A stretch of 64,000 nt of DNA from Desulfuromonas sp. (GTDB lineage Bacteria; Desulfobacterota; Desulfuromonadia; Desulfuromonadales; Geothermobacteraceae). Location of the stretch: positions 62,001 to 126,000 of the forward strand of contig PKUA01000018.1 in the NCBI GenBank assembly GCA_002868905.1, written 5' to 3'. Below, piece after piece: positions 5,528 through 8,376 of the stretch. Position 1 is the first letter of the stretch; the number at the start of each line of letters is the position of its first letter. A program made the translations under genes and the position numbers. The notes under the pieces were generated by a model. The model saw only the letters and a list, made by a program, of their open reading frames with translations. It made no database searches and was not told the origin of the DNA.

Positions 5528-6223
5528 ATGACCGAGACCATCCTGATCACCGGGGCGAACCGGGGCATCGGCCTGGAACTGGCCCACTGTTTTTCCAGAA
5601 TGGAGTGGCAGGTCTTCGCCTGCTGCCGGCAACCGGAATCGGCCGCCGCCCTGGTGGCGCTGGAGCGGGACTACCCGCAGCTCGTCACCCTGCCGCTCGA
5701 CGTCAGCGCTGCCGACCAGATTACGGCCCTCGTTCAACAGCTCAAGCAACACCCGATCGACATCCTGTTTCACAATGCCGGGATTTTCGGACCCAAAAAC
5801 CAGGCGTTCGGCGAAGTCGACGAAGCGTGGTGGCTGGAGACCTTTCGCATCAACACCATCGCCCCCTTGAAGTTGACCGAAGCCCTGGTCGAGAACGTGG
5901 CGGCCAGCCAACGCCGCATCGTGGCAGCGATGGGGAGTCAGCTCGGCAGCCTGGCCGATAACACCAGCGGCGGCTCATATATCTACCGGAGCAGCAAGGC
6001 CGCCCTGCACATGGTGGTCCGCTCCCTCGCCGCCGACCTCGCCCCGCGCGGCATTACTTCGGTGGTGTTTCATCCCGGCTGGGTCAAAACCCGCATGGGC
6101 GGTGCAGGCGCCCAGACCGAAGCGGCTCACAGCGCCGACGCCCTGAGCCGCCTGCTCTGCCAGCTGGCCCCGGCGGACAACGGGAAATTTTTCAGCTGGA
6201 AGGGACACGAGATTCCCTGGTAG
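5528..6223 (+). CDS. Short-chain dehydrogenase/reductase (C-factor-like)
   Basis: This 231-residue classical SDR has the nucleotide-binding motif TGANRGIG at residues 8-15. It also has the conserved NAG (HNAGIFG, about 84) and the catalytic YRSSK (Tyr-x3-Lys, about 152-156) with a Ser about 17 residues before it. The PGWVKTRMGG segment and overall length are like the csgA/C-factor subgroup. It should be a soluble NAD(P)-dependent oxidoreductase; the substrate cannot be told. GGGAG precedes the ATG. The leader carries a riboswitch-like stem-loop, and a terminator-like hairpin follows before the next gene. Confidence 0.9.
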   Translation: MTETILITGANRGIGLELAHCFSRMEWQVFACCRQPESAAALVALERDYPQLVTLPLDVSAADQITALVQQLKQHPIDILFHNAGIFGPKNQAFGEVDEAWWLETFRINTIAPLKLTEALVENVAASQRRIVAAMGSQLGSLADNTSGGSYIYRSSKAALHMVVRSLAADLAPRGITSVVFHPGWVKTRMGGAGAQTEAAHSADALSRLLCQLAPADNGKFFSWKGHEIPW

Positions 6224-6234
6224 ATTACTTACGG

Positions 6235-6260
6235 CGGCGGCAGCGATGCCGCCGTTGTTC
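6235..6260 (+). terminator. Hairpin with weak T-tract after the SDR gene
   Basis: CGGCGGCA (6235-6242), loop GCGA and TGCCGCCG (6247-6254) form an 8-bp stem followed by TTGTTC. The T-tract is poor, so termination may be partial and some read-through into the selenoprotein candidate is possible. Confidence 0.4.
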
Positions 6261-6297
6261 CATTCCATATTTGCCATGAACTCCGGGAGGATGGCCG

Positions 6298-6573
6298 ATG
6301 AAAACCAGGTTGAAATTTTTCGACTATGAATACCAGGAAGTGCTCGACGTCAAGACGCGGGAGTTGATCCGCGTCGCCTGCGCCGTTGCGGTACACTGCC
6401 CCGACTGACTGCGGAAGCACTTCGCGGTCGCGAAGCAGCATGGCGCCACCGAAGAAGAACTACGGGAAGCGATGGCGTACGGCATGATGGCCCCGGGCGG
6501 CCGGGCGAAAAACTTCGCCAAGGCGATGCTCGACGAATTGCAGGGGCTCGACGAGCAGGACCTGACACCCTAG
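6298..6573 (+). CDS. AhpD/carboxymuconolactone-decarboxylase-like selenoprotein candidate (in-frame UGA at codon 37)
   Basis: From the ATG at 6298 (GGGAGG seven nt upstream) the frame encodes 91 residues if the TGA at 6406-6408 is read through. The residues around it are HCPD-U-LRKHF. Counted out, Glu22, Cys34, position 37 and His41 have exactly the spacing of the AhpD proton-relay and redox centre (E-x11-C-x2-C-x3-H), with the UGA replacing the second Cys: a CxxU motif. After the UGA the frame continues with typical CMD-domain sequence (GATEEELREAMAYGMM) to a TAG at 6571. A hairpin at SECIS distance follows the UGA. Members act in peroxide or thiol-disulfide chemistry. The alternative, a pseudogene, is unlikely given the intact flanks. 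Confidence 0.85.
6406..6440 (+). promoter_or_regulatory. Bacterial SECIS-like element of the AhpD-like selenoprotein gene
   Basis: Directly after the UGA (6406-6408), CTTCGC (6420-6425), loop GGTC (6426-6429) and GCGAAG (6430-6435) form a perfect 6-bp stem. CTGC (6409-6412) can add a lower stem with GCAG (6435-6438). The apical loop starts with G, 17 nt after the UGA, inside the 16-37 nt window used for bacterial SECIS elements. The GGUC loop recalls the loop of E. coli fdhF. Confidence 0.75.
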
Positions 6574-6591: not shown

Positions 6592-8244
6592 TTAACGCAG
6601 CTCTTTGCGCAGAACCTTGCCGACCGGGTTTTTCGGCAGCTCATCGCAGAACTCGACACTGCGCGGCACCTTGTAGCCGGTCAGATTTTCCCGGCAGTAG
6701 GCGATCAACTCCTTGGCGGTCAAGCCCTCTCCTTGCGGGACCACGAACAGTTTCGGCACCTCGCCGCTCCGTTCATCCGGTATACCGATCACGGCACACT
6801 CGTGAACCTGCGGGTGCTTGGCCACCACCTCTTCAATCTCGTTCGGATAGACGTTGAACCCGGAAACCAGGATCATGTCCTTCTTCCGATCGACCAGCTT
6901 GACGTACCCCTCGGGCGTCATGAAACCGAGGTCGCCGCTGCGGAAGAATCCGTCCTCGCCGATCACCTCCGCCGTCTCCTCCGGCGCGCGCCAGTAACCG
7001 CGCATCACCTGCGGACCGTAAATACAGACCTCGCCGACCTCGCCGAACGGCAGCTCCCGACCCTCCTCGTCCCGGATCTCGACCACGGTCGAGGGAATCG
7101 GCAGGCCGATGTAGCCGTTGAACTCCTTGAGAGTCATCGGGTTGATCACCGCCGCCGGTGAGGTCTCGGTCAAGCCGTACGCTTCGACCAGCGGATGCCC
7201 GGTCACCTCACGCCACTGCTCGGCCACGCTTTTCTGAACCGCCATCCCCCCCCCGAGGGAGATCTTCATGTTGCTGAAGTCGAGGCGGCGGAACGCCGGT
7301 TGGCGCAGCAGACTGTTGAACAGGGTATTGACCCCGGTGATAACGGTGAACGGCCACCGGCGCATCTCATGGATGAATGCCCTCATGTCGCGCGGGTTGA
7401 CGATCAGGACGTTCAACGCGCCGACGTTGGAGAAGACGAAGCAGTTGGCGGTCAGGGAGAAAATGTGGTAGAGCGGCAGGGCGGTGATGATGATATCCTG
7501 CCCCTCCTCCACCAGGTTGCCGATCCAGGCTCGGGCCTGCAGCATGTTGGCGACCATGTTGCCGTGGGTCAACTCCGCCCCCTTGGCGACCCCGGTTGTT
7601 CCGCCGGTGTACTGCAAAAAAGCGGTATCCTCATGGGAAAGCGGGACCGGCTCGAAGCGGTCGACATCGCCCCGACGGAGCACCTCGTCGAAGGGGACCG
7701 CTGTCGGCAGGTGGAAATCCGGCACCAGCCGTTTGACATATTTTACCACCAGGTTGACCAGTAGCCGTTTCGGGAACCCGAGCAGGTCACCGATCTCGGT
7801 GATGAAAATGTCCTGCAACGCCAGCTGGTCGACGACCGCCGCCAGGTTGTGGGCCGCGTTGGCGAAGATGACGATCCCCTTCGCTTCGGCGTCCTGCAAC
7901 TGGTTCAACAGTTCACGCTTGGTATAGAGGGGATTGACATTGACCACGATCAACCCGGCCCGCAGGGCACCGAACAGGGCGATCGGGTACTGCAGGACGT
8001 TCGGCATCATCAATGCGAGCCGGTCTCCCTTGCGGTAGCCGTGCTGCTGCAGGTAAGCGGCAAATTGGCGGGAGAGTCGGTCGATCTCGGCAAAGGTCAG
8101 CACCTTACCGAAGCTGGTAAAGGCGGGGCGGACGGCAAACCGCTCGAAGGATGTCTCGAGCATATCGACGATCGAGCGGAACTCGCCCGGATCGATCTCG
8201 GCCGGAATCCCCTCGTCGTACTGCTTGAGCCAGACGTGCTCCAT
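6592..8244 (-). CDS. fadD: Long-chain-fatty-acid--CoA ligase
   Basis: The product of 550 residues belongs to the AMP-binding superfamily. The start MEHVWLKQYDEGIPAEI resembles the N-terminus of E. coli FadD. The P-loop-like YTGGTTGVAKGAELTH and the EAYGLTETSP motif are present. SGDLGF, DRKKDMILVSGFNVYPNEIE and the C-terminal Lys motif PKNPVGKVLRKELR follow. It activates long-chain fatty acids to acyl-CoA via acyl-AMP at the membrane. The ATG at 8244 has GGGAGA upstream and is preferred over an upstream ATG at 8280. No beta-oxidation genes lie next to it. Confidence 0.92.
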   Translation of the reverse strand: MEHVWLKQYDEGIPAEIDPGEFRSIVDMLETSFERFAVRPAFTSFGKVLTFAEIDRLSRQFAAYLQQHGYRKGDRLALMMPNVLQYPIALFGALRAGLIVVNVNPLYTKRELLNQLQDAEAKGIVIFANAAHNLAAVVDQLALQDIFITEIGDLLGFPKRLLVNLVVKYVKRLVPDFHLPTAVPFDEVLRRGDVDRFEPVPLSHEDTAFLQYTGGTTGVAKGAELTHGNMVANMLQARAWIGNLVEEGQDIIITALPLYHIFSLTANCFVFSNVGALNVLIVNPRDMRAFIHEMRRWPFTVITGVNTLFNSLLRQPAFRRLDFSNMKISLGGGMAVQKSVAEQWREVTGHPLVEAYGLTETSPAAVINPMTLKEFNGYIGLPIPSTVVEIRDEEGRELPFGEVGEVCIYGPQVMRGYWRAPEETAEVIGEDGFFRSGDLGFMTPEGYVKLVDRKKDMILVSGFNVYPNEIEEVVAKHPQVHECAVIGIPDERSGEVPKLFVVPQGEGLTAKELIAYCRENLTGYKVPRSVEFCDELPKNPVGKVLRKELR

Positions 8245-8376
8245 GAAATCTCCCGATAGAATGGCGGGGAAACCCCTCATGCCAAGTGATTCGCACCTTC
8301 AGCTTACACAATTCGGGGTAGGGTTGTCACCTGAACAGTCCCCGAACAGGCAAACCCGCGACAAAACCGACCTGGG

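Follow-up and report, generated by a model that had tools for sequence, protein, structure and literature searches.

The window, that is, the whole 64,000-nt stretch of DNA that was analysed, comes from a draft genome (G000) of 84 contigs that is 99.98% complete. A short-chain dehydrogenase (SDR) gene, recognised by Pfam adh_short, lies on the plus strand at 5528-6223, and 74 nt downstream of it, on the same strand, is a GSU3128-family AhpD-like gene that occupies positions 6298-6573, stop codon included. The interval between the SDR stop and this gene holds a 12-bp inverted repeat that encloses a four-base loop (6231-6258, plus strand; -29.5 kcal/mol for the fold of 6224-6297), which is perhaps a terminator; it lacks a good T run, and a terminator scan did not call it. 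An AMP-binding gene of the acyl-CoA synthetase type (Pfam AMP-binding) converges on the locus from downstream (6592-8280, minus strand). A plausible ribosome-binding site, as read from the sequence, is GGGAGG at plus-strand positions 6285-6290, which lies 7 nt ahead of the start codon. The frame opens with the ATG at 6298, ends with TAG at 6571-6573 and has one interruption, the TGA at 6406-6408. When this TGA is translated as U, the product is 91 residues long with a single U at position 37, the second position of a CxxC motif. The listing of open reading frames of at least 80 aa contained nothing on the plus strand at 6298-6573. The first-pass annotation had described an AhpD-like selenoprotein gene that ordinary calling misses, with a frame intact on both sides of the TGA and a good ribosome-binding site, and our results bear out this description.

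The read-through protein scored 146.8 bits against NF041047, the "GSU3128 family (seleno)protein" model with a cut-off of 110, its residues 1-82 aligning with model positions 1-83 of 84. It also matched the CMD/AhpD domain (Pfam PF02627) at 58.2 bits (E 8.5e-16), passing the gathering score of 23. Its redox motif is C34-P-D-U37, a CxxU. According to the published account, the catalytic residues of M. tuberculosis AhpD are E118, C130, C133 and H137, with His132 as a fifth residue of the relay (PMC3141380). The spacing E22-x11-C34-x2-U37-x3-H41 matches that of E118/C130/C133/H137, so that the TGA at 6406 does stand in place of the second AhpD cysteine, as had been proposed, while the equivalent of His132 is not kept and is Asp36 here.

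The same codon was followed through related genomes. An order-level search gave 46 above-cut-off NF041047 matches in 45 of 136 genomes, and every one of the 46 has an in-frame TGA; one match, at a contig end, carries a TAG besides. In a phylum sample of 395 genomes there were 16 above-cut-off matches, all with one TGA, and 8 of these were new. No Cys form was found among the above-cut-off family members in either the 136 genomes of the order search or the 395 of the phylum sample. We assembled a set of 53 distinct family sequences, leaving out L001, which is the same as the window, L096, a contig-end fragment with a score of 229, and sequences that duplicated another over 72 nt; low-scoring loci that encode other AhpD-type or unrelated proteins (L023-L030) were excluded from family counts. 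E22, C34, TGA37 and H41 are each present in 53 of 53. Five further proteins from other classes of the same phylum (L111-L115, from G416, G258, G285, G436 and G376) fell below the NF041047 cut-off, with 65-71 bits in the phylum search and 70.9-76 bits in a scan of the extracted proteins. The position of the TGA and the hairpin stem are shared by all five of these sister proteins, three of which have a GGCxHU motif. A plasmid search returned 30 records with partial, weak matches; among the matches listed, all were below 60% identity and none extended over 80% of the query, and no close relative emerged.

The genome is equipped to make selenocysteine: selA, selB and selD were found on contig C51 and the tRNA-Sec on C80, each above its own family cut-off, and the anticodon of the tRNA is TCA (UCA in RNA) according to ARAGORN. 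Both searches that the first-pass annotation had suggested thus favour its proposal, selA, selB, selC and selD being all in the same genome and position 37 of the homologues showing TGA throughout, with no random codons. Of the 45 genomes of the order in which the gene occurs, 42 have selA, the exceptions being G010, G046 and G106, which are 59%, 81% and 78% complete. Because selA is common in the order in any case (115 of 136 genomes), this co-occurrence is a matter of consistency and not a strong association. The same genome has in-frame TGA codons in other genes as well. Its SelD (L040, 1501-2418, minus strand) has one in an SSGU motif and is hence itself a selenoprotein. One of six AhpC-TSA matches, the peroxiredoxin-like L107 (1441-1990; G000:C64:82514-82858), has a TGA in TSGU (residue 61 when translated) and is likely another selenoprotein of this genome.

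A candidate SECIS hairpin, CUUCGC-GGUC-GCGAAG, is present at 6420-6435 on the plus strand. Its 6-bp stem is formed by CTTCGC (6420-6425) and GCGAAG (6430-6435), and the GGTC loop (6426-6429) begins 17 nt past the TGA; the earlier report of a GGUC-loop hairpin at SECIS distance was therefore correct. Stem and loop are identical in 47 of the 53 distinct sequences, and in one more only the last loop base differs. In L007, L012 and L083 the hairpin reads CCTCGC-GGTC-GCGAGG, a double change that turns a U-A pair into C-G and brings with it the substitutions F42L and K46R. In two relatives, L020 (1788-1835) and L103 (G233:C1, about 126712-126957), the hairpin has moved one codon further downstream, with a GGCA loop, an offset of 20 and stems of 6 bp and 8 bp, respectively, and the protein and the TGA are retained. 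Relatives from outside the class have the same stem with GGGC, GGCC or GGCG loops. At codons 42-46, which form the hairpin, the top synonymous codon accounts for 96-100% of the 53 sequences, whereas at 39 other degenerate codons that are well conserved the mean is 61% (Mann-Whitney p 0.0003, which is descriptive since the sequences are related).

We also applied a hairpin test that called for a stem of at least 6 bp, a G at loop position 1 or 2 and a limit of -7.0. The test covered 65 sequences, namely the set of 53 and 12 added loci, which were all of L097-L104 and L111-L116 (14 loci) except L101 and L104, repeats of L011 and L002. It was passed by 63 of them; in 200 synonymous redraws, an average of 7.7 passed and never more than 16. 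This result is to be read as a guide and not as a probability because the limits were chosen after the hairpin had been seen and the sequences are related. The two failures are L019, in which the stem is present with a CGUG loop, and L098, which has the old stem with a CCUG loop. Single-sequence folding was uninformative and was dropped as proof of a SECIS: the 61 nt at 6400-6460, folded alone, are no stabler than shuffles (z 0.19), and a competing hairpin is favoured in the 40 nt running from the UGA. The bare 16-nt hairpin has an energy of -7.1 kcal/mol and the 28-nt stretch around it -9.9, and longer stretches have competing folds. An Rfam scan of the window at gathering thresholds returned one tRNA only and no match to a SECIS family. 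The bacterial SECIS model, as given in a recent review, has an energy at or below -7.5 kcal/mol and a loop 16-37 nt from the UGA with a G within its first two bases (PMC13188914); the geometry found here (6 bp, GGUC, 17 nt) agrees with that model, and the -7.1 kcal/mol of the 16-nt hairpin falls slightly short of its energy limit. Since the folding energy of the single sequence does not favour the hairpin, our SECIS assignment is based on conservation.

The hairpin is thus kept nearly letter for letter while synonymous codons vary freely elsewhere, and this, together with the TGA and sel evidence, argues that the gene is decoded with selenocysteine, most likely through SelB and this putative SECIS. 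Other explanations of the TGA have to be set against this one. That an AhpD-like gene was broken by a chance TGA, in a pseudogene or through a sequencing error, would agree with the 36-residue stub that an ordinary caller yields and with the draft state of the assembly; however, the frame and GC3 (0.78 and 0.83) are alike on the two sides of the TGA, the genome has the Sec machinery, and the same codon is TGA in 53 of 53 distinct relatives, with neither Cys nor any other codon. We rejected a pseudogene or error on this last count, and regard it as having practically no chance of being right. It is also very improbable, if a shade less so, that the TGA at 6406 codes for Cys or Trp or is passed by leaky read-through, with the hairpin being an RNA element unrelated to it. 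The weak folding of the hairpin as a single sequence would fit such a reading, but the TGA lies exactly at the AhpD cysteine site in a genome with selA, selB, selC and selD, the hairpin shifts as a unit in L020 and L103, and its position, its loop G and its synonymous conservation fit the published description of bacterial SECIS elements. Selenocysteine decoding by the conserved hairpin remains our preferred interpretation.

The gene neighbourhood was compared across the family. Blastp clustering of the neighbours of the 53 loci gave a largest cluster of 13 loci, a same-strand downstream protein that we take to have the look of a type II secretion/pilus ATPase; many of the flanks extend over only 1.5 kb. 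The SDR does not occur in the 14 largest clusters (each of at least 3 loci, from the same 53). Over 80 family loci, again with many flanks of only 1.5 kb, an SDR relative was detected once, at L089, about 1.8 kb away and not adjacent. The AMP-binding gene is likewise not conserved beside family loci. The SDR neighbour, which the first-pass annotation had thought worth recording, is therefore of no particular note, and with no conserved neighbour an operon reading of the neighbourhood was rejected. The selenoprotein gene is probably transcribed alone.

The protein was modelled with AlphaFold2 from a 29-row alignment (mean pLDDT 91.1, pTM 0.75). By VIA-align the closest solved fold is that of RclX (7y4r; Z 10.2 over 69 residues, 1.5 A), with 3bey as the other top match (Z 9.7, 74 residues, 3.2 A; in Foldseek, E 9.7e-4 with 42% identity across 64 columns). 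M. tuberculosis AhpD (1gu9) reaches Z 5.7 (73 residues, 3.6 A). The predicted fold is the AhpD two-helix core, which gives no indication of the substrate.

Based on these results, we hold with high confidence that the product of the locus is a GSU3128-family selenoprotein of 91 residues, in which UGA 6406 specifies selenocysteine within an AhpD/CMD core, and which is most likely a selenol/thiol oxidoreductase. From the conservation of the element and the presence of the machinery, we envisage that SelB recognises the GG-starting loop of the hairpin just downstream of UGA 6406 and delivers tRNA-Sec, with its UCA anticodon, to that codon. The product would take up the two-helix AhpD/CMD core, as modelled. 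By analogy with AhpD, C34 and U37 would then form the redox pair, and E22 and H41 would occupy the proton-relay positions; U37 may attack an oxidised substrate, which could be a peroxide or some other reactive oxidant, or else a partner protein that bears a disulfide or selenenylsulfide. C34 would resolve the attacked state by forming a Cys-Sec bond, and the pair would be reset by a thiol reductant of the cell. On this analogy the protein is likely to act as a CxxU thiol/selenol reductase or peroxidase of the AhpD type. Because no AhpC/AhpF partner is tied to the selenoprotein and no neighbour is conserved, the enzymatic role is taken from homology only.

Within the selenoprotein interpretation, there is a substantial chance, somewhat short of even, that the protein is no peroxidase and acts instead as a carrier or reductase for one partner, or handles other oxidants in the manner of RclX. 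AhpD of M. tuberculosis serves AhpC, and the six AhpC-TSA matches in this genome, one of them with an in-frame TGA, would be compatible with a carrier. RclX, the closest solved fold, would speak for the handling of other oxidants: its deletion renders P. aeruginosa sensitive to HOCl and HOSCN (PMC7950407). In contrast, no conserved neighbour suggests a partner, and likeness of fold says nothing about the substrate. The oxidant protection by RclX is a lead only for the role of the selenoprotein, and the AhpD-type reductase or peroxidase assignment is the one we retain.

The gene is a further member of the already known GSU3128 family, and the family itself is not new. A selenoprotein called "distant AhpD homolog" was listed in 2006, reportedly by Zhang et al. 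That work names it for two species, G. sulfurreducens and G. uraniumreducens (PMC1794560), which agrees, along with the curated NF041047 model, with the earlier statement that Sec-containing AhpD-like proteins are known as a class. A 2026 review lists the distant AhpD homolog with NF041047 and CxxU, and because that row bears nearly the same name, we treat the 2006 entry and NF041047 as one family (PMC13188914). No biochemical study of the family was found in searches of the openly available literature.

Three features deserve note: a Cys form is apparently absent, the SECIS has shifted by one codon in some relatives, and there is a sub-cut-off sister group outside the class. Plain gene calling reduces this gene, whose SECIS signature is very clear, to a 36-residue stub. 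Since no Cys form occurred among the above-cut-off members in two genome searches, one could tentatively envisage a family locked to selenium, in which the SECIS moves by one codon while TGA and protein are kept and the sister group shares both Sec and hairpin, a doubtful generalisation in our estimate. Most redox selenoproteins have Cys twins. If the family were indeed locked to selenium, this tiny enzyme, in contrast to most redox selenoproteins, would carry out chemistry beyond the reach of Cys.

Among known systems, the GSU3128 family (NF041047) shares with the selenoprotein its length, the CxxU motif, the stand-alone form and the bacterial group; compared with the 84-position model, the C-terminus is slightly longer, with nothing else of note. 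The short, 91-residue stand-alone form that had been singled out at first is thus confirmed as such, but it is normal for the curated family and not special. M. tuberculosis AhpD (1gu9, 1knc) and the CMD/AhpD domain (PF02627) resemble the selenoprotein in the motif of the two-helix core, E-x11-C-x2-[C/U]-x3-H; unlike AhpD, the selenoprotein has Sec for the second Cys, Asp for His132 and half the length. The top structural matches, P. aeruginosa RclX (7y4r) and M. thermautotrophicus O27018 (3bey), are small AhpD-fold proteins that belong to other families by sequence, with 31-42% identity to the selenoprotein over the core, and RclX is a CXXC protein (PMC7950407). The AhpD domains of MduS (NF045649, E 5.7e-9) and of the arsenite methyltransferase/AhpD proteins (NF041537, E 6.5e-11) also bear Sec, but they make up the C-terminal part of two-domain methyltransferase selenoproteins.
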